Source of the DNA: Acidobacteriota bacterium
GTDB lineage: Bacteria > Acidobacteriota > Terriglobia > UBA7540
Length of the DNA stretch: 13,897 nt
Direction: 5' to 3'
Assembly: GCA_003165615.1 (NCBI GenBank)
Contig: PLWR01000581.1
Coordinates: forward strand, 1 to 13,897
The position numbers were made by a program, and so were the translations under genes. The stretch's first letter is position 1. Every line of letters starts with the position of its first letter. Below are positions 57-13,400 of this stretch, in pieces. The notes beneath the pieces are model-generated. The model searched no databases, was not told where the DNA came from, and saw only the letters and a program-made list of their open reading frames with translations.

Positions 57-200
57 GAGGCGAAACTTCCCTCGCGGGCGAAGATTCGTGTGGAGCCCGA
101 AACTTCATTGTACACGATGGATGAACTTGCCCACAAACCTTCGCGTCGTGACCTGGCACCCGAACATTGCAATTACGAGATAGAGGCCAACCCGAAGGAT

Positions 201-304
201 ACTCTCTGTGTTCTCCGTGGCCAGAACGGATCCAACACAGAGGTCACAGAGAGACTCCGTGAACTCTGTGTTAAATCTTTCGAAGCACAGAGGACACAGA
301 GAAA
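201..304. repeat. CTCTGTG/CACAGAG dispersed repeat cluster, alternating orientation
   Basis: Four short units alternate in orientation: CTCTCTGTGTTCTCCGTGG (about 202-220), CACAGAGGTCACAGAGAG (236-253), CTCCGTGAACTCTGTGTT (255-272) and CACAGAGGACACAGAG (286-301). Neighbouring units are approximate reverse complements and could fold into hairpins. This pattern resembles a dispersed intergenic repeat I associate with acidobacterial and verrucomicrobial genomes (from memory). It is the 5' flank of the dehydratase gene. Although an open frame runs through it from position 90, the translation (LRELCVKSFEAQRTQRN) looks like translated repeat, not protein. Confidence 0.6.
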
Positions 305-308
305 TTGC

Positions 309-1505
309 ATGGAGAATCCTGCCACACCGCCGTATTCACACGTGGTACGTTATAATCCTGACTGGATATCAATAATGCGACGGGAGTTGGAAAACCACGA
401 TTGGGAAACATTCCTCGGCCGGCGCCAAATCGAGGGCGACGGTACGAAGATTGATGCCGCGATTGCGGGAAAGGCTATTCTTCTGACGGGCGCGGGCGGC
501 TCCATTGGGTCTGCCCTGGCAATGAGGATTGCCGCGTCCCACCCCCGGCTTTTGCTCCTTCTAGAAAACTCTGAACAGAACCTCTATCAAATCCATACTG
601 ATTTGGACAGCCTTGCGAACGGAGCGCCACATATTCCCATCCTCGGCGACATTGCCGATCGCCCGTTGATCGACGACATCTTTGCGCAGCATCGGCCGGA
701 AATTGTTTATCATGCCGCAGCATTCAAACATGTACCACTGATGGAAGCCAATCCGCTGGCGGCCATCCGGAACAATACCCTTGGCACCTATGCTCTGGCC
801 AAGGCCGTCGCCCACCACGCAGGTCAGAAGCTCATCATGATTTCCACGGACAAGGCGGTAGATCCGCAGAGCGTGATGGGGGTCTCGAAACGGGTGGCGG
901 AACTTGTTCTCATGACCCTGAGCAATGAAAACACGCGGATGAACAGCATCCGCCTCGGAAACGTATTGGGTTCCCAAGGCAGTGTGGGATTGCTCTTCCT
1001 CCAACAGATCGGCCGGGGCGCACCGGTAACAGTAACTCATCCCGAGGTTCGCAGATTCTTCCTGACCCTCGGTGAAACTGTGCGACTAATATTGACGGGC
1101 GCCTCCCTTGATTCACCCGGAGGAATCTGGGTTCCGGAACTGGGTCCTTCTCTTAAAGTGCTGGACCTGGCAAAACACTTGATCCGAAGCGTCGGCATCA
1201 CACCGGGGGACGACATTCCCATTACCTTCATCGGATTGCGGCCAGGGGACAAGATGGTGGAGCAGTTGGTCTCGACGCGGGAGTCGAAGGATAATGCAGC
1301 AACTAACGGGCTCCACCGGATTACAAGCCAACATTTTTCGCGCGAAGATTTGGCGGCAGCCATTGCTGAACTCACGGAGATTTCAAGCCGACGCGACGTC
1401 GCAGCTCTGATTCGGGGGCTGTGCAACATTGTTCCGGAATACCGGCCAAGCACCGCATTACTTCCGTCGGCAACCCATTCGGAGATCAGGGCAAATCACG
1501 CATGA
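309..1505 (+). CDS. UDP-N-acetylhexosamine 4,6-dehydratase, CapD/FlaA1-type SDR
   Basis: A 398-aa extended short-chain dehydrogenase of the polysaccharide-biosynthesis (CapD/PseB/LegB) type. It should oxidise, dehydrate and re-reduce a UDP-HexNAc to the 4-keto-6-deoxy sugar, using bound NAD(P) in the cytoplasm. What is seen: the Rossmann motif TGAGGSIG (residues 60-67), GDI at 113-115, YHAAAFKHVP (134-143), the active-site stretch STDKAVDPQSVMGVSK (179-194) with Met190 where classical SDRs have Tyr and Lys194 conserved, RLGNVLGSQGSV (215-226) and RPGDKM (311-316). It lacks the N-terminal membrane domains of WbpM/CapD, so it is the soluble form. The frame is open from 90, but that part is repeat sequence. 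ATG at 309 is preferred, with only a weak AGAG ribosome site, and ATG 375 is possible. Its stop overlaps the start of the next gene (ATGA), implying translational coupling. The exact sugar epimer made is not decidable here. Confidence 0.88.
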   Translation: MENPATPPYSHVVRYNPDWISIMRRELENHDWETFLGRRQIEGDGTKIDAAIAGKAILLTGAGGSIGSALAMRIAASHPRLLLLLENSEQNLYQIHTDLDSLANGAPHIPILGDIADRPLIDDIFAQHRPEIVYHAAAFKHVPLMEANPLAAIRNNTLGTYALAKAVAHHAGQKLIMISTDKAVDPQSVMGVSKRVAELVLMTLSNENTRMNSIRLGNVLGSQGSVGLLFLQQIGRGAPVTVTHPEVRRFFLTLGETVRLILTGASLDSPGGIWVPELGPSLKVLDLAKHLIRSVGITPGDDIPITFIGLRPGDKMVEQLVSTRESKDNAATNGLHRITSQHFSREDLAAAIAELTEISSRRDVAALIRGLCNIVPEYRPSTALLPSATHSEIRANHA

Positions 1506-2704
1506 CCAGAAAAATCGCTGTCCTTACAACTTCCCGCGCTGACTATTCCCACCTCTACTGGCCTTGGCGCGACCTCGCCGCGCACCCGGAAGTCGATCTG
1601 CGCATCATCGTGATCGGATCGCACTTGTCGCCGGAATTTGGGAACACTGTGCAGGAGATTGAAAAGGATGGATTCCGAATTGATGCGCGCATCGAGTGCC
1701 TTTTGAGTTCCGATACGGACGTGGGGATGGCGAAGACTATCGGCGTGGCCACACTGAGCCTTGCCGATGCCCTGGGGCAAATGCGTCCCGACTTGCTCTT
1801 GCTGATCGCGGACCGCTATGAGCTGCTGGCCCCGGCTTCCGTGGCGCTGGCCTTGCGAATTCCGATTGCGCATATCGAGGGCGGAGAGATCAGCGCGGGC
1901 GCCATCGACGATGCCGTCAGGAATGCCGTCACGAAAATGAGCCACATCCACTTTACGGGAACCGAGTCAGCCCGCCGGCGGGTCATAGCCATGGGCGAAG
2001 AGGAGTGGCGTGTCCACCGAACCGGCGTTCCATCCCTCGACCATCTCCGCCGGCAAACATTGTTCACTCACGAACAGTTGGAATCCCATCTGAAGTTGGA
2101 TCTCGCCCGGCCCACAACCTTGGTGGTCTACCACCCCGTCACGCTTCTTCGTGACACCACCCAGGAAGCGGATGCGCTGTTTGCTGCGCTGGAGTTGCTG
2201 CCGGAGCAGATCCTATTTTGCTACCCCAATGCGGACGCCGGCAGCCGGGCTTTGATCGAGCGAACCCGCGATTTCCTCTCCGATGGCTGTCGGGGGCATC
2301 TGTTCGTCAATCTGGATTCTCTCACCTACTGGAGTCTCCTCCAGCAAGTGGATTTGTTGCTCGGCAATTCGAGCAGCGGAATCATGGAAACCCCTTCCTT
2401 CGCGTTGCCCACGGTCAATATCGGGCTCAGGCAGGAGGGCCGGGAACGAGCCCGCAACATTTTGGATTGTCCTCCGAACACGCAAGCCATTCTGGAAAAG
2501 ATTCGTGTGGCAAGGACCGCGGAATTCCGCGAGTCATTGCAAGGGATGACGAACCACTACGGCGACGGGCACGCCTCCGAGAAGATCGTACAGGTCCTGA
2601 CCACGGTTCCTCTGTCACCGGAACTTCTGATCAAATACCCATCCTCGGCTCGGAAGGGCGGGGCTGAAGCCCCGCCCTTCCAAAGACGTGAGGCAGCGTT
2701 ATAG
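1502..2704 (+). CDS. neuC: UDP-N-acetylglucosamine 2-epimerase (hydrolysing), NeuC/LegG type
   Basis: A 400-aa GT-B-fold enzyme that hydrolyses UDP-GlcNAc, or a UDP-2,4-diacetamido sugar, while inverting C2 to give a ManNAc-type sugar. That is the committed step to sialic or legionaminic acid. Visible family landmarks: N-terminal TTSRADYSHL (9-18), LLIADRYELLA (100-110), HIEGGEISAGAIDDAVRNAV (124-143), RTGVPSLDHL (173-182) and LLLGNSSSGIMETPSF (285-300). The start overlaps the dehydratase stop by 4 bp (ATGA), so this start is preferred to an in-frame ATG at 1421 lying inside the upstream gene. Next to a 4,6-dehydratase and an aminotransferase it may act on a 2,4-diamino sugar (LegG role), not on plain UDP-GlcNAc. 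Its last residues (about 384-400) are encoded by a GC-rich palindrome and look non-native. Confidence 0.87.
   Translation: MTRKIAVLTTSRADYSHLYWPWRDLAAHPEVDLRIIVIGSHLSPEFGNTVQEIEKDGFRIDARIECLLSSDTDVGMAKTIGVATLSLADALGQMRPDLLLLIADRYELLAPASVALALRIPIAHIEGGEISAGAIDDAVRNAVTKMSHIHFTGTESARRRVIAMGEEEWRVHRTGVPSLDHLRRQTLFTHEQLESHLKLDLARPTTLVVYHPVTLLRDTTQEADALFAALELLPEQILFCYPNADAGSRALIERTRDFLSDGCRGHLFVNLDSLTYWSLLQQVDLLLGNSSSGIMETPSFALPTVNIGLRQEGRERARNILDCPPNTQAILEKIRVARTAEFRESLQGMTNHYGDGHASEKIVQVLTTVPLSPELLIKYPSSARKGGAEAPPFQRREAAL
2652..2681. repeat. GC-rich palindromic repeat inside the 3' end of the epimerase gene
   Basis: GGAAGGGCGGGGC (2652-2664) and its perfect reverse complement GCCCCGCCCTTCC (2669-2681) flank a TGAA loop, and T-A pairing can extend the stem to 14 bp. 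It lies inside the reading frame about 8 codons before the stop and encodes KGGAEAPPF. Such a strong hairpin without a U-tract resembles a dispersed REP-like palindrome more than a terminator. It could stabilise or attenuate the transcript between the epimerase and the aminotransferase. Confidence 0.8.
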
Positions 2705-2718
2705 GTGATTCTCGATAG

Positions 2719-3843
2719 ATGCGAATACCTCTCTCATCCCCGGACATTACCGAAAGCGAAATCCAGGCGGTCACCAGCGTATTGCGTACCGTGCGATTGA
2801 GTCTTGGACCGAAGCTGGAGGAATTTGAGAATGCCGTGGCGGCTTACGTGGGGGCAGCGCATGCCATCGCCGTAAACTCCGGAACCAGCGGCCTGCACTT
2901 GTGCATGCGAGCCCTGGGCATCACCGATGGCGATGAAGTCATCGTGCCGTCGTTCTCTTTCATTGCGGTGGCCAACGCCGTCGTCTACGAAAGGGCCGTG
3001 CCGGTTTTTGTGGACGTTGATGCGGAAACCTTGAACCTTAATCCCGCGAAAATCGAGGCCGCGATCACTCCCAAAACGCGCGCCATTCTCGTCGTGCATA
3101 CCTTTGGATACCCGGCGGACCTGGGGGCCATTTTCAGCATTGCCCGAAGGCGCGGCCTCCGAGTCATTGAGGATGCGTGTGAAGCGATCGGCGCTGAATA
3201 CGAGGGCCGCAAGGTTGGGCCGCTCGGGGACGCGGGAGTTTTCGCGTTTTATCCCAACAAGCAGATCACCACTGGCGAGGGCGGCGTGATCGTAACTCAA
3301 AACTCGCAGGTTGCCGCGCTCGCCCGCGCGCAGCGCAACCAGGGACGGTCCCATGCCGGCGAGTGGCTGGAGCACGGCGAACTGGGTTACAACTATCGCC
3401 TCTCAGAAATCAACTGCGCGCTGGGGATCGAGCAAATGAAGCGGATCGAGTCCATTCTGAAGAAAAGAGATGCCGTCGCGCGTGAGTACCATCGGCGGCT
3501 GAGTGGTAATCCTGATCTGAAACTTCCCCCGATGGACGTGCCTGCGGGCAGGATCAGTTGGTTTGTTTACGTTGTCCGGCTCGGCGCACGCTTTACGCAG
3601 CAGCAGCGCGATTGGATCTGGACGGAAATGACCTCGCGCGGGATTGGTTGTGGCAGGTACTTTGCTCCCATCCACTGGCAGCCAGTTTATAAGAGCCTCG
3701 CAGGTCCAAGGCATGACCTGCCAAATACGGAGTGGAGCGCCGTGCGTACTCTTGCCTTGCCCTTCTTCAACAATTTGCACTCTGCCGAGATTGACGAAGT
3801 CTGCCAGACCCTGCAGGAATTGATGCAGGCTGTCCCCGATTGA
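2719..3843 (+). CDS. DegT/DnrJ/EryC1/StrS-family sugar aminotransferase
   Basis: A 374-aa fold-type I, PLP-dependent enzyme that should transfer an amino group, usually from glutamate, to a 4-keto nucleotide sugar such as the dehydratase product. Seen in order: RTVRLSLGPKLEEFE (23-37, substrate and dimer region), VNSGTSGLHL (52-61, phosphate-binding loop), VIVPSFSFIAVANAV (74-88), VVHTFGYPAD (125-134), VIEDACEAIGAEYEG (149-163, with the Asp that contacts the PLP ring nitrogen) and FYPNKQITTGEGG (177-189) with Lys181 as the Schiff-base lysine. Length is normal for the family. It begins 14 bp after the epimerase stop, so it probably shares a transcript. It completes a set of dehydratase, 2-epimerase and aminotransferase; the acetyltransferase, condensing synthase and CMP-transferase of a full legionaminate pathway are not in the window. 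A perosamine- or bacillosamine-type product is equally possible. Confidence 0.88.
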   Translation: MRIPLSSPDITESEIQAVTSVLRTVRLSLGPKLEEFENAVAAYVGAAHAIAVNSGTSGLHLCMRALGITDGDEVIVPSFSFIAVANAVVYERAVPVFVDVDAETLNLNPAKIEAAITPKTRAILVVHTFGYPADLGAIFSIARRRGLRVIEDACEAIGAEYEGRKVGPLGDAGVFAFYPNKQITTGEGGVIVTQNSQVAALARAQRNQGRSHAGEWLEHGELGYNYRLSEINCALGIEQMKRIESILKKRDAVAREYHRRLSGNPDLKLPPMDVPAGRISWFVYVVRLGARFTQQQRDWIWTEMTSRGIGCGRYFAPIHWQPVYKSLAGPRHDLPNTEWSAVRTLALPFFNNLHSAEIDEVCQTLQELMQAVPD

Positions 3844-6430: not shown

Positions 6431-6880
6431 CGATCCTCCAACCCGGCGCCGCGCCACCTGGAATCGGCGTCAGGTTTTTTCCGTGGCTCCGCGCACTTAG
6501 CGTCCGGGAGCATCACCAGAAATCGGAACTCCCCCAGGAGACTCATCGGCGGGTTCCAGTTTCTCTTTAGTCTTGGGGTGCGAATGAGGCTTGAATGAAG
6601 GGACTATGAATGCCTTCCGACCTTGCTCGCGTTACCCAGCGTAATCATCGTGACCAACGGCGCCACTCATACGGCAGCCGTCCATCAATCCTGCGTCGCC
6701 TATTAGACTTCGGAGGTCCCCTGGTGTCAAGTATTCATCCTCACACTGTCTTCCTCCTCACACGTTCCGCAGGTACGCTGGCGTGCCACCCGGCCAACGC
6801 GGGTTTTCCACCGTGAGGTTGGAAGAGTACCGCATTAGGGGTAGAATGGGCCATCATCGACACACTGGGGGGATGCGCCA
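6431..6880. other. 450-bp divergent intergenic region
   Basis: This lies between the divergently transcribed GalT-like gene and the AhpD-like selenoprotein gene, so it must hold both promoters. Open frames in it have no recognisable protein character. I see no tRNA and no clear sigma-70 promoter. A weak stem ACCCG/CGGGT followed by TTTT occurs near 6788-6808. A GGGGGG purine run at 6867-6872 serves as the likely ribosome site for the downstream gene. Confidence 0.5.
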
Positions 6881-7462
6881 ATGGCCTGGATCAAAGTGGT
6901 CGAACCCGAACAAGCAACCGGCACGTTGAAGAAGGAGTACGACGCCGCGGTAGAGCGCGCGGGAAAAGTCTTCAATATCCTCAAGGTTCAGAGCCTGAAT
7001 CCGCCAGCCCTGCAAGCCTCCATGCAAATGTATCGCGCCACCATGTTTGGCCCCTCGGGCCTTTCGCGGGCTGAGCGCGAGATGCTGGCCACGGTGGTTT
7101 CCTGGGCCAACCACTGTTTCTATTGAACCGAAGCTCACGGGGAGGATCTCCGTGCCGAATCCAATGATGAGCAACTGGCGGAACACGTCAAGCACGACTA
7201 CAACCGCGCCAACCTTAATCCGCGGCAGAAGGCGCTGTGCAAGTTCGCGGAGATGGTGACGCGGGCCCCGGGGGCCTTGAGTGCAAGGCACCTTGACCCC
7301 TTGCGCCAACTCGGTTTGAGCGACCGCGACATCCTTGACGCCGTCGAAGTCATCTCCTACTTCAATTACATCAACCGCATCGCCGATGCCCTCGGCATCG
7401 ATCCCGAGCCGGAAATGCAGGCGGCGCACGAAAAATGGAAAGAAGGTTTGGACGAGGGCTGA
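6881..7462 (+). CDS. AhpD-like peroxidase-related selenoprotein (TGA 7124-7126 read as Sec)
   Basis: Read through one in-frame TGA, this is a 193-aa carboxymuconolactone-decarboxylase/AhpD-fold protein, a cytoplasmic thiol-dependent peroxidase or disulfide reductase. The AhpD active site is Glu-x11-Cys-x2-Cys-x3-His. Here Glu67, Cys79, TGA-encoded residue 82 and His86 fit that spacing exactly (EMLATVVSWANHCFY-U-TEAH). Only one stop interrupts the frame, and after it the same frame continues with AhpD-family sequence (HGEDLRAE, LNPRQKALCKFAEMVTRAP, DILDAVEVISYFNYINRIAD) to a TGA at 7460. A SECIS-like hairpin sits just after the codon. An ordinary gene caller would give an 81-aa fragment ending at 7126. 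The start is supported by a GGGGGG run 8 nt upstream. A nonsense mutation of TGC or TGT to TGA is the alternative, but the hairpin and intact C-terminus favour selenocysteine. AhpD-like selenoproteins are known from genome surveys; the substrate here is unknown. Confidence 0.85.
7124..7154 (+). promoter_or_regulatory. Sec UGA codon and bacterial-type SECIS hairpin
   Basis: After the TGA (7124-7126) and 9 spacer bases, CACGGGGAG (7136-7144) pairs with CTCCGTG (7148-7154) around a GAT apex, with two G bulged. The apical loop starts 19 nt after the TGA, and bacterial SELB-binding hairpins place it at about that distance inside the coding region. A G is in the first loop position and the upper stem is G/C-rich. 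The lower stem is poorly paired. The fold was made by eye. Confidence 0.65.
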
Positions 7463-7475
7463 GGCGCTCGGCCAG

Positions 7476-7796
7476 ACAGGCTGCGGAAAGCCGCTCCCAT
7501 GCTGTCATCCTGAGCATTGACAGCGTTGCGGCTGCCCATCATGAACAGAAACTTGAAGAAAAGCACACCAGCCCCTCAATGTCATTCTGAGCCCGTTTTT
7601 CTGGGCGAAGGATCTCGGCAGTTCGTGGAGGGCGACGAAAAAAGCAAACTACGGGGGTTCTTCGCCCCCAAAACGGGCCCAGAATGACAGCGCAATTGAT
7701 GGTGAATCTAAATCAATTTGGCGTCGAATTTCTGCCGAGTGAAAGACCGGCTTCGCCTCCTCAGGATGACAGCGTGAGAGGTTTTCCGCAGCCTGT
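7476..7796. repeat. nested inverted-repeat island (TGTCATCCTGAG family)
   Basis: The 344-bp gap between the selenoprotein gene and the TIM-barrel gene is almost wholly repeats. Outer arms: ACAGGCTGCGGAAA (7476-7489) and its exact reverse complement (7783-7796). Middle arms: GCTGTCATCCTGAG (7501-7514) and its exact complement (7760-7773). Inner arms: 20 bp at 7580-7599 and 7670-7689, 19 of 20 complementary. CTCGGCAG at 7614-7621 also has its complement at 7732-7739. Four copies of the TGTCATYCTGAG core are present, two in each orientation. Open frames crossing the island are accidental. It may also act as a bidirectional transcription stop between the converging genes. Confidence 0.85.
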
Positions 7797-8897: not shown

Positions 8898-11033
8898 TTA
8901 CAATGCGGATATGGGTTGACCAGGACTTTGTTCCCCCGCTCGTCGCTGGAGAATTTCGATAAAGCAATTGACCAGGGAGACGGCGGCGGGGGTGATGCCG
9001 GGAATACGGGAGGCTTGCCCCAGCGTCAGGGGGCGCACTTTGGTGAGCTTCTCCACGACCTCGCGCGAAAGACCGGAGACTTTACCGTATTCGAACCATT
9101 CCGGAATGCGCCGCGATTCGGCCCGCTTCATCCTTTCCATCTGCCGTTCCTGCTGCTGCAAGTAGCCTTCGTATTTGAAATCCGTTTCCACGCGCCGGGC
9201 TTCTTCACGGGAGAGCGCGGCAAATGGATGAACCCCCTCACCCGTCCCGCCCTGCGGGACACCCTCTCCCCCAAGGGGGCGAGGGATGTTATTTATGATG
9301 GTGGATGATTGCAGTCCCTCACTGACCCATTCCATCAAGTCATCGATCCCCAGCTCCGTCCGCTTGAGCAATTGCGCGCCGGTCAAAGGCGAAGGTGCGG
9401 TAAGATGTCCGCCCTCCATCAGTCCAAGTCTCGTGTAGATTTCCTGGCCCCCCCGCGAGCGCGGATCCAAACGCGTTTCGAGCAGAAATTTTGTTGCCGC
9501 ACTGATGCGCAGCTTCTTTCGCGCGAACGCCTCGTAATCCTTTTGCCTGATGGTGCCGACCTGGTATCCCAGGGGAGTCAGGCGCTCGTCGGCGTTGTCG
9601 ATGCGCAGGTGCAGACGAAACTCGGCGCGCGAGGTAAACATGCGGTAAGGCTCGTCCACGCCCTTGCTCACCAGGTCGTCGATCATGATTCCCGCATACC
9701 CCTGCGTGCGGTCGATGGTGACGGGCGGCTTCCCTTGCGCGCGCAGTCCGGCATTAATCCCCGCCATGAGGCCCTGGCAACCCGCTTCTTCATAACCGGT
9801 GGTTCCATTGATCTGCCCGGCCAGAAACAGGCCCTGAATCTTCTTCGTCTCGAGCCACGGATAGAGTTCCGTGGGCTGCACCATGTCATACTCGATGGCG
9901 TAACCGGGGCGAATCATGTCGGCGTTTTCAAGGCCCGGGATCGACTTCACCATGGCCATCTGCACGTCAATGGGCATGGAGGTCGACATGCCGTTGACAT
10001 AGATCTCATTGGTGTCGAGGCCTTCCGGCTCCAGGAAAATCTGGTGCTGCGGTTTGTCCGGAAACTTCACGATCTTGTCTTCGATGGAGGGGCAGTAGCG
10101 CGGCCCGATACCCTTGATCTGTCCGGAGTAGAGTGGAGCGCGATGCACGTTCTCCCGAATGGCGCGATGCGTTTCGGCATTGGTGTAGGTAATCCAGCAA
10201 ACCGTCTGCGGCTGGGTGATGGCCTTGGTGCGAAAGCTGAACGGCGTGGGAACCGGATCGCCGGCCTGCACTTGAAACTTCGAGAAATCAATGGTGCGCG
10301 CGTCGAGCCGGGGTGGCGTGCCGGTTTTAAGCCTGCCCACCTCGAATCCCAGACGGCGAAACGCCTCACCCAATAGTACCGCGGGCGGTTCGCCCGAGCG
10401 TCCGGCCGGATATTGGTTTTCCCCACAATGGATCAGGCCGTTGAGGAATGTCCCCGTGGTGATGATGACCGCGCCCGCCTCCACCGTCCGCCCGTCGAGC
10501 AGGCGCACTCCGCGCACGCGTAGCGCCGCCATCCTGCCGGCGTTTTCGAGATCGGCCGATGCAGACTCGGGATGTGCCGGCAAGATGCCAGCGCCACCGT
10601 CTTCAATCACCAGATCGATAACTTCCGCCTGTTTGATGCGCAGGTTCGGTTCCGATTCCAGGACTTGTCGCATCTTCGCCCGGTAGAGTTTCTTGTCCGC
10701 CTGCGCCCGTGGCGACCATACGGCTGGCCCACGGCTGGTGTTGAGCAGGCGGAACTGGATTCCCACCGCGTCGATGACCTCGCCCATCACTCCGCCCAGC
10801 GCGTCGATTTCGCGCACCAGGTGGCCCTTGGCGATTCCGCCCACGGCGGGATTGCAGGACATCTGCGCGACCAGGTCCAGGTTGATAGTGTAAAGCGCCG
10901 TCTTCAGCCCCATCCGCGCCGCTGCCATCGCCGCTTCGCAGCCCGCGTGCCCCGCGCCCACCACCACCACATCGTATTTTTCCGAAAAGCCCATCGACAT
11001 TGTTGGTTGCCCGCCCGAGAAGGCCACCTTCAT
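8898..11033 (-). CDS. mnmG: tRNA uridine-5-carboxymethylaminomethyl modification enzyme MnmG (GidA)
   Basis: The FAD- and NADH-dependent partner of MnmE, which installs (carboxymethyl)aminomethyl at U34 of certain tRNAs in the cytoplasm. Seen: FAD dinucleotide fold [14 protein letters not shown] (22-35), [13 protein letters not shown] (59-71), the family signature [18 protein letters not shown] (310-327), [17 protein letters not shown] (405-421) and the C-terminal domain from KYEGYLQQQ (620-628) to the end. At 711 residues it is about 80-90 longer than usual. Two in-frame inserts explain most of this: residues about 146-172 and 576-604, both encoded by dispersed palindromic repeats. Start choice is uncertain: M1 has no good ribosome site, and M12 or M14 immediately precede the conserved core. 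An IS1-family element lies 42 bp upstream of M1 and probably displaced the native promoter. mnmE is not in the window. Confidence 0.95.
9222..9302. repeat. dispersed double-hairpin repeat inserted in mnmG (C-terminal part)
   Basis: GTCCCGC-CCT-GCGGGAC (9244-9260) forms a 7-bp stem. CCCTCTCCCCC/GGGGGCGAGGG (9262-9285) forms a second stem with an AA loop and one mismatch. CCCTCACCC precedes them at 9235-9243. Translated on the minus strand this gives [19 protein letters not shown] (584-602), unlike MnmG and typical of a translated low-complexity palindrome. It keeps the frame and sits just before the conserved C-terminal domain. Confidence 0.75.
10522..10595. repeat. imperfect inverted repeat inserted in mnmG (N-terminal part)
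   Basis: The 20 bases at 10522-10541 and the reverse complement of 10576-10595 agree at 15 of 20 positions, sharing the core ATCYTGCCGGC. The segment encodes minus-strand residues about 147-171 ([20 protein letters not shown]...), which interrupt the usual MnmG sequence between VIDLVIEDG and [12 protein letters not shown]. The reading frame is maintained. The GCCGGCAAGATGCC theme resembles other dispersed repeats of such genomes (from memory). Confidence 0.65.
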
Positions 11034-11067: not shown

Positions 11068-11075
11068 GACGGTTC
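11068..11075. repeat. 8-bp target-site duplication, left copy
   Basis: GACGGTTC directly abuts the left terminal inverted repeat and is repeated exactly at 13393-13400 after the right one. Eight base pairs fits the duplication size of IS1-family elements (8-10 bp). Confidence 0.92.
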
Positions 11076-11094
11076 GGTAGTGTCCTAGTTTGAA
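11076..11094. repeat. left terminal inverted repeat of the IS1-family element
   Basis: GGTAGTGTCCTAGTTTGAA is the exact reverse complement of 13374-13392. The first mismatch comes at the 20th base. Confidence 0.95.
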
Positions 11095-11140: not shown

Positions 11141-11251
11141 ATGAAAAAAGAGCCTAAACCGAAAACGAAGCCGAAGACGAAGCCCCGCGAGGATACCAAC
11201 CAGATCGCCCATAGGGTTATGCAAGAGGTTATCCAGCGCAGTGAGGGCTAG
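11141..11251 (+). CDS. 36-aa basic passenger protein of the IS element
   Basis: ATG at 11141 to TAG at 11249-11251 gives a 36-aa peptide: a Lys/Pro-rich head (MKKEPKPKTKPKTKPRE) followed by DTNQIAHRVMQEVIQRSEG, a likely amphipathic helix. The head-plus-DxNQxAxRV pattern resembles short conserved proteins I have seen in several phyla, with no known function. No strong ribosome site is seen; GAGGTG lies about 14 nt upstream. Its stop overlaps the stop of the minus-strand DUF3800 gene within the palindrome CTAG (11248-11251), so the two genes converge on shared bases. It may be a small nucleic-acid-binding or regulatory cargo protein (inference). Confidence 0.6.
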   Translation: MKKEPKPKTKPKTKPREDTNQIAHRVMQEVIQRSEG

Positions 11252-12142
11252 ACAAAGATGGTTCGCCCTGCTGTGGGGTCAGCTTTTCCTAGGAGTTTTG
11301 CCATAGTTTGGGCGCTGAAATAGTGTACATCTTCGATTTTCCGGCTGAGCGCATGGAAAATTGTTAGGAGTTCCGGCTTCAGAGACCCACCGTCCCGCAC
11401 ATAGTGATACCAGACATAGGAAAATAAATCAGCAGCTTGAAGTCCAGCAGCCTCATTGCTAGATGTGAACGTCACATCCCCCATACGGGAAGAAAACTCA
11501 GGAGGGGAGCCGCGCTTTATAATCGTGTAGAGATCACGCGCAAATGATGAAAGTTGCTTATTTTCATCGAACCAAAAATGAGCCTTCCAGCCTGCCGGTT
11601 TAACAGCCTCGACTGCCTGAATCACAACATCTTGGAAGGGAAGGAAATAGGCTTTCTTTGGAGCGCCTGAAACGCGCCATTTTTCATTTTTCCATTCTCC
11701 CCCCGGTTAAATGGCGACGCTCATTCTCGTTTAGGCTAGAAAAATAGTTAACATCAATTATCGCGCCAACAGGGAAAATATTCGTCCGGTTGATGGCATC
11801 CATGCGGCAATCCAAATAACCGGTGGCCTTGGCATCATCCCAACCGTCATAGGGAGGTAGTCGGTGCCCCCTTGGGTCCCTTCGAAAAAACTGTGTGGCG
11901 TGCAATTCTGTTTGGCATCCATCGGCTGCCCAACGGCGTTGAAAATCCTTCCACTGTTGCTCGCTTCCTCTATAGCCAGCCACGACACAAAACTTTGACC
12001 CTTCGTGAGTCCCGCTTTCATCCACATACACTTTAACCATAACAATCTGTCCGGGCGCACCTATCCGGGGGTGCATCCAAGCGCCTAAAGGGGGAGCTGT
12101 TTTGGGCTGGACGAAAACCGCTTGACTGTCTAGGATTGACAT
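11248..12142 (-). pseudogene. DUF3800-type protein gene, frameshifted by a 7-bp duplication
   Basis: Two minus-strand frames form one DUF3800-like protein. The 5' frame starts at 12142 (AGGAG 9 nt upstream) or 12040 (MVKVYVDESG) and carries the N-terminal YVDESGTH motif. It stops at 11684 after GGRMEK. The 3' frame continues WRVSGAPKKAYFLPF and holds the late motif GLQAADLFSYVWYHY, ending at 11248. At the junction ATTTTTC occurs twice in tandem (11679-11692). Removing one copy restores MEKWRV and gives an unbroken 295-aa frame from 12142, or 261 aa from 12040. DUF3800 proteins have no settled biochemical role. Their conserved acidic residues suggest a nuclease-like fold, and they often occur in mobile regions (family knowledge, from memory). 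It is probably inactive here unless the slip is corrected. It lies downstream of, and co-directional with, the 55-aa gene. Confidence 0.82.
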
Positions 12143-12433: not shown

Positions 12434-12504
12434 CGTAAGCGGTCACGTATATTCTTGAAAACAAACTAAATTGAGTTCTTGACATGTACGTGAGCGCTCA
12501 CGTA
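12411..12504. promoter_or_regulatory. three related palindromic operators between divergent genes
   Basis: The best copy, TACGTGAGCGCTCACGTA (12487-12504), is a perfect 18-bp palindrome. The copy at 12432-12449 matches it at 16 of 18 positions and that at 12411-12428 at 15 of 18. The last two are centred 21 bp apart, two helical turns, and the first is 55 bp further right. Their positions over the promoter elements of both directions suggest a dimeric repressor controlling transposase and cargo together. The core GTGAGCGCTCAC equals that of the symmetric lac operator, so a LacI-type protein is one candidate. Confidence 0.75.
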
Positions 12505-12508
12505 TACT
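12479..12508 (+). promoter_or_regulatory. transposase promoter, TTGACA-18-TATACT
   Basis: A consensus -35 TTGACA (12479-12484) and -10 TATACT (12503-12508) are separated by 18 bp. The perfect operator palindrome occupies nearly the whole spacer and touches the -10, the classic layout for steric repression. Transcription would start near 12515, just before the ribosome site at 12522. Confidence 0.75.
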
Positions 12509-12531
12509 GTATTTGTAAGTTAGGAGATGCC

Positions 12532-13383
12532 ATGAAGAGACTGACCCGCGAAAAACAAGCTCAAATCGTATCGGCGCTGATTGAAGGAAACTCCATCCGC
12601 GCCACTTCCCGCATGTTTGGCGTGTCGAAAGATACCGTCCTAAAACTCCAAGTCGAAGCGGGCTACGCGAGCGCGAATTATCAGGACCGTGTTTTCGTCA
12701 ACCTGAATTGCAAGCGCGTCCAGTGCGATGAAGTGTGGGCTTTCTGCTACGCGAAGCAAAAGAACGTGCCCTCTGAGATGCAAGGTAAGTTTGGCGCCGG
12801 GGATGTCTGGACCTGGACCGCGATTGATGCCGATACCAAACTGATTCCCTCTTTCACCGTGGGCAACCGGGATGCATCCAGCGCAAGGATTCTGATTGAG
12901 GATTTGGCCGGAAGGCTCAAGAGCCGGATTCAGTTGACCACTGATGGCCTGAAAGCGTATGCGGTGGCAGTGGAGGATACCTTCGGCTCTGAGATCGATT
13001 ACGCCATGCTGATTAAAACCTACGAATCCTCGCAAGCGGAAACCCGGTATAGCCCCGCTGTTTGCACTTCCTGCGAGCCCAAGCCCATCATGGGACGGCC
13101 CGACCCTAAGCACATTTCGACTTCCTACATTGAGCGCTCCAATCTGAGCATCAGAATGGGGATTCGACGCTTTACCCGGCTGACTAACGGATTCAGTAAG
13201 AAAGTGGAAAACCACGCCGCTGCCTTCGCGCTGTTCTTGATGCACTACAACTTCTGCCGGGTGCATCAGACCTTGCGCGTTACCCCCGCAATGGAGGCTG
13301 GTCTGACGAATCACATTTGGAGCGTGAAAGAGATGCTGGAAGCAATTGGATTGCCATGCGGAACTTTCGAGAGTTCAAACTAG
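12532..13383 (+). CDS. IS1-family DDE transposase
   Basis: A 283-aa transposase. The N-terminal helix-turn-helix (residues 5-40, SIRATSRMFGVSKDTVLKL) probably binds the terminal repeats. A short cysteine-containing stretch precedes CDEVWAF (65-71, first Asp 66). TDGLKAY (137-143) has the second Asp 138 and IERSNLSIR (200-208) has Glu 201, matching DEMW, TDGW and RIERHN of IS1. FSKKVENHAAAFALFLMHYN (221-240) parallels the IS1 C-terminus. ATG 12532 is chosen because AGGAG stands 5 nt upstream; an in-frame ATG at 12484 lies inside the promoter. It is a single frame, unlike IS1, which needs a frameshift, so it belongs to the single-ORF branch of the family. The stop TAG is part of the right inverted repeat. 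It appears intact and active. Confidence 0.92.
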   Translation: MKRLTREKQAQIVSALIEGNSIRATSRMFGVSKDTVLKLQVEAGYASANYQDRVFVNLNCKRVQCDEVWAFCYAKQKNVPSEMQGKFGAGDVWTWTAIDADTKLIPSFTVGNRDASSARILIEDLAGRLKSRIQLTTDGLKAYAVAVEDTFGSEIDYAMLIKTYESSQAETRYSPAVCTSCEPKPIMGRPDPKHISTSYIERSNLSIRMGIRRFTRLTNGFSKKVENHAAAFALFLMHYNFCRVHQTLRVTPAMEAGLTNHIWSVKEMLEAIGLPCGTFESSN

Positions 13384-13392
13384 GACACTACC
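13374..13392. repeat. right terminal inverted repeat of the IS1-family element
   Basis: TTCAAACTAGGACACTACC is the exact reverse complement of the left end (11076-11094). It includes the last codons and stop of the transposase. Confidence 0.95.
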
Positions 13393-13400
13393 GACGGTTC
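13393..13400. repeat. 8-bp target-site duplication, right copy
   Basis: GACGGTTC immediately after the right inverted repeat is identical to 11068-11075. Confidence 0.92.

Follow-up and report, generated by a model that had tools for sequence, protein, structure and literature searches.

A 2026 review (PMC13188914) lists an 'AhpD-like protein, TIGR01926, CxxU', with MCB9421940.1 as its example. The kind of selenoprotein dealt with here is therefore already known, in agreement with an earlier sequence-only reading of this DNA, which had not claimed the class as new. Two other AhpD-like groups that carry selenocysteine (Sec) in a CxxU motif, AhpD-like 1 (COG2128) and AhpD-like 2 (pfam02627), were described from seawater in the Sargasso Sea and GOS surveys (PMC1088965, PMC2398784), and for one AhpD-like protein the Sargasso paper also predicts a bacterial SECIS (PMC1088965). 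Known Sec use in Acidobacteriota includes three families with four proteins (PMC1794560), and three known selenoprotein genes are given for Occallatibacter riparius (PMC12013277).

The window analyzed here is a stretch of 13,897 nucleotides from a bacterium of the Acidobacteriota, a group that is common in soil. On its plus strand, a frame with an ATG start at 6881 runs to a terminal TGA at 7460-7462, and re-reading it to that point bore out the sequence-only reading that its sole internal stop is the TGA at 7124-7126. This codon specifies residue 82 of a 193-residue product, where it occupies the second position of CxxC in the motif CFYU. The active-site spacing of AhpD, Glu-x11-Cys-x2-U-x3-His, is present in the product and was correctly assigned, as all four codons agree: GAG for Glu67 (7079-7081), TGT for Cys79 (7115-7117), TGA for Sec82, and CAC for His86 (7136-7138). 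Glu67, an invariant column of the alignment, corresponds to a proton-relay residue of the AhpD-type active site (PMC3141380), as His86 does by alignment. Upstream of the gene, a G-rich stretch shortly 5′ of the ATG (6867-6873, plus strand) is, by its sequence, a possible ribosome-binding site, and a weak sigma-70-like site at 6819-6847 on the same strand matches the consensus at 9 of 12 positions. As had been anticipated for standard annotation, the table-11 ORF list of the window reports for this gene only an 81-residue piece, 6881-7126.

The read-through product belongs to a defined family. It matches the TIGR01926 "peroxidase-related" profile with 172.2 bits against a cut-off of 81.8, and the match extends over residues 2-178 on profile positions 1-178, so that family-like sequence does continue across and beyond the TGA. 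The Pfam CMD domain is matched with 54.7 bits. A second family, NF041238 (AhpD_rel_CFYUT, alkylhydroperoxidase-related (seleno)protein), carries the same CFYUT string in its name; the product scores 89.4 bits against this model, which has a cut-off of 175 and is 357 positions long, and thus is not a member. An AlphaFold2 (AF2) model built with 16 alignment rows has a mean pLDDT of 80.7 and matches 6k40, from D. radiodurans, at a TM score of 0.80. The structures 6k40, 3c1l, 2pfx, and 2oyo all share the fold of the model at TM scores of about 0.8, with 36-39% identity over the structural alignment. Sequence alignments of two of these, 6k40 and 3c1l, place a Cys where the 193-residue product would have Sec.

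A scan of the genome collection produced 15 related loci (L001-L015) from named Acidobacteriota assemblies, which are 64-86% identical in the best segment. Their titles read Acidobacteriota or Terriglobia, with one Candidatus Versatilivorator, which is placed in Acidobacteriota. The alignment of homologs at residue 82, proposed in the sequence-only reading as a check, revealed TGA in 15 of 15 close relatives alongside the Cys of the two structures, and the frames of the relatives are otherwise open over 181-194 residues. Comparisons of the window with these relatives gave dN/dS values of 0.06-0.12 for residues 1-81 (calculable in 11 of the 15 comparisons) and of 0.07-0.23 for residues 83-180 (calculable in 14 of the 15). 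Both halves around the TGA are under purifying selection. These data bear directly on the possibility that the TGA is a nonsense mutation or a sequencing error in the pseudogene of an ordinary Cys enzyme. The division of the frame under table 11 into an 81-residue piece and a tail is in keeping with such a pseudogene, but the TGA is found at the same codon in all 15 relatives, which are separate records, and dN/dS in the tail is low in every calculable comparison. Because the TGA is retained throughout and selection acts on both sides of it, this explanation fails, and we assign it a negligible probability. Random stops or a frameshifted C terminus in close relatives, named earlier as the pattern that would speak against a selenoprotein, are absent.

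Components of the Sec machinery were searched for in the genomes of the 15 relatives and in 14 control genomes, using family cut-offs. Matches above cut-off were obtained for tRNA-Sec in 14 of the relatives' genomes compared to 5 of the controls, for SelA in 14 compared to 1, and for both SelB and SelD in 12 compared to 2. The best tRNA-Sec scores in the 14 positive relatives' genomes ranged from 61.8 to 74.9 bits; the remaining genome (G002) was the only one of the 15 in which the search stayed below cut-off, with a best score of 44 bits. SelB was below cut-off in three of the relatives' genomes, as was SelD in three. ARAGORN assigned the anticodon TCA to all eight of the tRNA loci submitted to it. 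Separately, the SelD matches above cut-off in this set of genomes (G001-G015) each carry one in-frame TGA (12 of 12), from which it appears that selenophosphate synthetase is itself probably a selenoprotein in this lineage.

Downstream of the UGA, a putative bacterial SECIS hairpin, CACGGGGA-GGA-TCTCCGTG, is located at 7136-7154 on the plus strand, as judged by position rules, synonymous redraws, and silent-site conservation. Its 8-bp stem pairs 7136-7143 with 7147-7154 around the 3-nt loop GGA at 7144-7146; 17 nt separate the UGA from the loop, and the hairpin covers codons H86-R91 plus one base, the codon of His86 doubling as the 5′ end of the stem. The bSECIS rules set out in PMC13188914 (legend to its Figure 2) call for a loop of 3-9 nt, a stem of 4-16 bp, a G in the first two loop bases, a spacing of 16-37 nt from the UGA, and an energy of −7.5 kcal/mol or lower. 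The window hairpin, at −10.1 kcal/mol, conforms to every one of these published rules. The same hairpin is possible in all 16 close sequences, with eight pairs in 10 of them and seven pairs in 6, and in 15 of the 16 it belongs to the best fold predicted for the 48 nt that follow the UGA, L011 folding otherwise. In these sequences 95.3% of the stem cells pair, compared to 26-58% when the stem is slid along the alignment. A search of the whole window against Rfam at the gathering threshold gave no match.

As an independent line of evidence, silent sites within the hairpin are conserved to an unusual degree. Over the 68 residues that are invariant among the 16 close sequences, codon identity is 0.90 at codons 86-91 compared to 0.50 elsewhere; these codons form the highest run of six, a level attained by about 1 in 100,000 sets of six columns drawn at random. 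The sole silent changes within them are GGA/GGG and CTC/CTT, both of which keep a standard pair, and the 24 sequences of the wider set that share the peptide HGEDLR show only single exceptions (one GGC, one GAC, and one CGG). In the wider set, 91 of 113 Sec forms have a hairpin that obeys the rules and reaches −7.5 kcal/mol or lower, against 14.6 expected from synonymous redraws with pooled codon use, and 62 of the 113 surpass their own redraws at the 5% level. The remaining 22 Sec forms fall short of the energy threshold. Among the Cys forms, 3 of 10 reach it against 0.9 expected. The hairpin that obeys the rules is weak (−3.5 to −3.2 kcal/mol) in seven Sec forms (L062, L066, L067, L074, L086, L142, and L143), and the first five of these form one clade; such weak-hairpin forms may use another SECIS shape.

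Covariation was less informative. No stem pair changed on both sides within the 16 close sequences, since the stem is too conserved. A wider pairing set was formed from the 98 of 113 sequences that have G[G/T] where the loop lies. Pairing holds in 81% of its stem cells compared to 30-56% when slid, and 40 cells, 32 of them at one pair and the other 8 at a second, are changed on both sides compared to 4 to 31 in slid controls. This covariation provides weak support for the predicted SECIS and may stem from few events. Folding energies of the 48 nt after the UGA, set against mononucleotide shuffles, gave z-scores from 0.07 to −2.95, with 0.04 for the window. Because covariation and these z-scores are weak, the case for the SECIS is built on the conserved silent sites, on agreement with the published position rules, and on the synonymous redraws.

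The alignments also point to a second arrangement. Another ten sequences, selected for a peptide that ends in DLR and for the absence of the +17 loop, pair fully with a loop at +24 (100% over seven pairs compared to 17-43% when slid), and three of the 98 sequences (L054, L056, and L058) likewise have their best hairpin at +24. The predicted SECIS thus exists, by these alignments, in two registers, with its apical loop either 17 or 24 nt after the UGA. A hairpin that is free of fixed codons in this way argues that the RNA, and not the peptide, is under selection, and the two registers offer a natural system for studying how an RNA signal within a coding region moves in evolution.

The distribution of the gene was followed in a draw of 396 Acidobacteriota genomes with a profile made from the 16 close proteins (E ≤ 1e-20). 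Matches were found in 112 genomes, 87 of which have a TGA-bearing relative, with the TGA verified at the Sec codon in all 87. Under stricter filters (E ≤ 1e-9), tRNA-Sec was detected in 238 of the 396 genomes and, among controls, in E. coli, Thermus composti, and Methanocaldococcus jannaschii; Sec decoding is therefore broad in the phylum. Specifically, tRNA-Sec is present in 78 of the 87 genomes with a TGA-bearing relative, compared to 6 of the 25 whose matches listed are TGA-free and 154 of the 284 with no profile match. Fisher tests, uncorrected for the relatedness of the genomes, gave P values of 4.8e-10 (TGA-bearing compared to TGA-free) and 1.5e-11 (TGA-bearing compared to all the rest). 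The nine TGA-bearing genomes in which the strict filters recovered no tRNA-Sec may, like G002, be incomplete.

For codon counts, 110 listed places (30 + 80) were combined with the window and L001-L015 into 126 loci with 128 profile hits, L039 and L040 being repeats of L001 and L010. The aligned codon is TGA in 115 hits, TGC or TGT in 10, and another codon in 3, two of which are second hits in L094 and L121. This ratio of 115 to 10 is biased, as the query was derived from Sec forms and most TGA-bearing but only some TGA-free listed rows were taken. A fairer statement is therefore that, among the matches listed and as counted by eye, all 54 at 150 bits or more hold at least one TGA, the best TGA-free match having 148 bits. 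Two or three verified Sec copies occur, among the loci taken, in no fewer than 12 of the 87 genomes that bear a TGA form. In a tree of 122 proteins, the window falls beside L002 and L001 in a supported all-Sec clade of 12 rows (100/99), itself nested in an all-Sec group of 22 rows (83/94, not starred). The tree, which is unrooted and in which long branches meet, implies six changes between Sec and Cys, five of them forced by starred branches. On balance we lean, by a narrow preference, toward a radiation of AhpD-like selenoenzymes in Acidobacteriota, made up of several clades in which Sec is usual over Cys and in which the SECIS was re-formed in two or more registers, the signal moving while the enzyme stayed.

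Another way to account for the internal TGA is that Trp or some other amino acid is inserted there, by reassignment of UGA or plain read-through, with no part for selenium. Database entries lend this some color: of 129 database relatives, 120 were listed, and by pattern 31 of these have Trp recorded at the site. These entries, however, are most simply explained, probably, as gene calls made under code 4, and 10 of the 13 TGA-free profile hits have Cys at this position while none has Trp. Moreover, the TGA forms track tRNA-Sec and carry hairpins that obey the SECIS rules, and TGA is the ordinary stop of three neighboring genes as well as of the selenoprotein gene itself, so that a general reassignment of UGA is unlikely. 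We consider this explanation extremely improbable. The other stored relatives comprise 42 that start just after the Sec site, 18 that end just before it, 19 with Cys, and 10 of other kinds. These entries indicate that standard annotation either splits the antioxidant-type enzymes of this set or labels them wrongly, and such mis-annotation is widespread.

Taken together, the TGA shared by 15 of 15 relatives, the candidate SECIS hairpin, and Sec machinery above cut-off in 12 to 14 of the 15 relatives' genomes support the earlier proposal that 6881-7462 encodes an AhpD-like selenoprotein. That UGA 7124-7126 is decoded as Sec is extremely likely, and the reading of the whole as a Sec-decoded AhpD-like enzyme of 193 residues, its substrate excepted, is very likely, drawing on the frame, the profiles, the relatives, the structure model, and dN/dS. 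The gene also indicates that its source lineage within Acidobacteriota decodes UGA as Sec.

Upstream of the selenoprotein gene there is a GalT-like gene in the opposite direction; downstream, the minus strand carries a TIM-barrel gene and mnmG. When eight neighbor proteins were compared with L001-L015 by tblastn, L002 proved to have both mnmG and the TIM-barrel gene next to its selenoprotein gene, and L001 to have mnmG there; the remaining 13 loci, several of them short, gave no match to any of the eight. Just 3′ of the selenoprotein gene, two inverted repeats, one nested in the other, lie in 7476-7796; each is 21 nt long and 90% complementary, and stretches resembling TGTCATTCTGAGC occur both inside them and in the intervening sequence. 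The mnmG gene (8898-11033) contains low-complexity peptide stretches, and the mnmG genes of L001 and L002 differ at about the same places by eye; these stretches look like repeat elements tolerated in a housekeeping gene. Next to mnmG lies the segment 11074-13394, bounded by a 21-nt inverted repeat without mismatches (11074-11094 and 13374-13394). It contains an IS1-type transposase (12484-13383, plus strand) and, on the minus strand, two ORFs whose frames differ (11684-12142 and 11248-11625) and which we take to resemble a split DUF3800 gene. This segment is probably a mobile element with a broken passenger. The ORF pair at 11248-12142 was considered as a second selenoprotein and rejected, because, although the first piece ends in TGA, the second lies in another frame. 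At the other end of the window, 90-3843 encodes consecutively a polysaccharide-biosynthesis dehydratase, a UDP-GlcNAc 2-epimerase, and a DegT aminotransferase, which looks like a surface sugar pathway of the nonulosonic-acid type. No neighbor in the window marks the selenoprotein gene as a peroxidase.

The sequence-only reading had labeled residue 82 as the resolving-cysteine position, a label that the relatives make doubtful. Three Cys-type relatives have lost the first Cys of CxxC while the second stays (L100, TRYC; L107, SSYC; L108, NSYC), and L106 (CTYS), in which Ser replaces the second Cys, is the single relative that opposes this trend. In AhpD from M. tuberculosis, it is Cys133, the second Cys, that attacks and Cys130, the first, that resolves. 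Because the first Cys is lost in three relatives compared to the second in one, and in light of this enzymology, we conclude with good confidence that Sec82 is the attacking rather than the resolving residue, with Cys79 as its probable resolving partner. The His is conserved throughout the 115 TGA hits, and every one of the 114 that extend over the first Cys retains that residue. Both Cys residues of AhpD, together with the Glu and His, form a proton relay according to PMC3141380, a description compatible with either Cys as the attacking residue.

By analogy with characterized relatives, a function in hydroperoxide or thiol redox chemistry is reasonably likely. Loss of the AhpD-like protein of D. 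radiodurans raised sensitivity to H2O2, and its CxxC cysteines matter (PMC8945050). The main rival on function is that the selenoenzyme is chiefly a thiol- or lipoyl-linked adaptor that re-reduces AhpC or OsmC, as AhpD does, rather than a peroxidase itself. Reviews describe AhpD as handing electrons from lipoyl proteins on to AhpC and, in the case of C. glutamicum, to OsmC (PMC8945050, PMC12028322), and PA0269 has weak peroxidase activity (PMC3141380), both of which favor an adaptor, while the D. radiodurans phenotype is compatible with either role. No AhpC-like gene, however, was found in the window, either in its ORF list or in a comparison of ten proteins with Pfam, and we regard the adaptor role as rather unlikely. 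A more remote rival is a selenoenzyme with reductive-dehalogenase chemistry, akin to the CMD-fold debrominase Bmp8 and to the selenium-containing deiodinases. The AF2 model does match Bmp8 (6ohi and 6ohj) at TM scores of 0.78-0.79, but at only 15-16% identity, compared to 36-39% with 6k40, 3c1l, 2pfx, and 2oyo, and no neighbor with a role in halogen metabolism was recognized in the window; we judge this chemistry very unlikely.

Under the favored reading of a hydroperoxide or thiol redox selenoenzyme, the following sequence of events can be proposed. When the ribosome meets UGA 7124-7126, SelB carrying Sec-tRNA(Sec) would bind the hairpin at 7136-7154, and Sec would be inserted at residue 82 of the 193-residue, CMD-fold TIGR01926 selenoenzyme, two steps that the comparison with relatives supports. 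The Sec selenolate, activated by the Glu67/His86 proton relay, would then probably attack a hydroperoxide, the resulting selenenic acid could be resolved by Cys79, and the Se–S bond might finally be reduced by a thiol or lipoyl donor.

Among literature searched by title and the start of the abstract, which takes in few subscription journals, we found no description of the spread in Acidobacteriota or of two SECIS registers. The closest described counterpart is the entry in PMC13188914, which names the same TIGR01926 subfamily and the same CxxU motif with Sec second as in the 193-residue product; it consists of one table row with an example accession, so that the comparison is by description only, and the string 'acidobacteri' is absent from the main text of that review. 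The AhpD-like 1 and 2 proteins of the Sargasso Sea and GOS surveys share CxxU with this gene and differ in their source, which is marine metagenomes. In the GOS data, Cys homologs outnumber Sec forms (902 to 299 and 207 to 70; PMC2398784), whereas in Acidobacteriota, with methods that differ from those of that survey, every one of the 54 matches listed at 150 bits or more carries a TGA.
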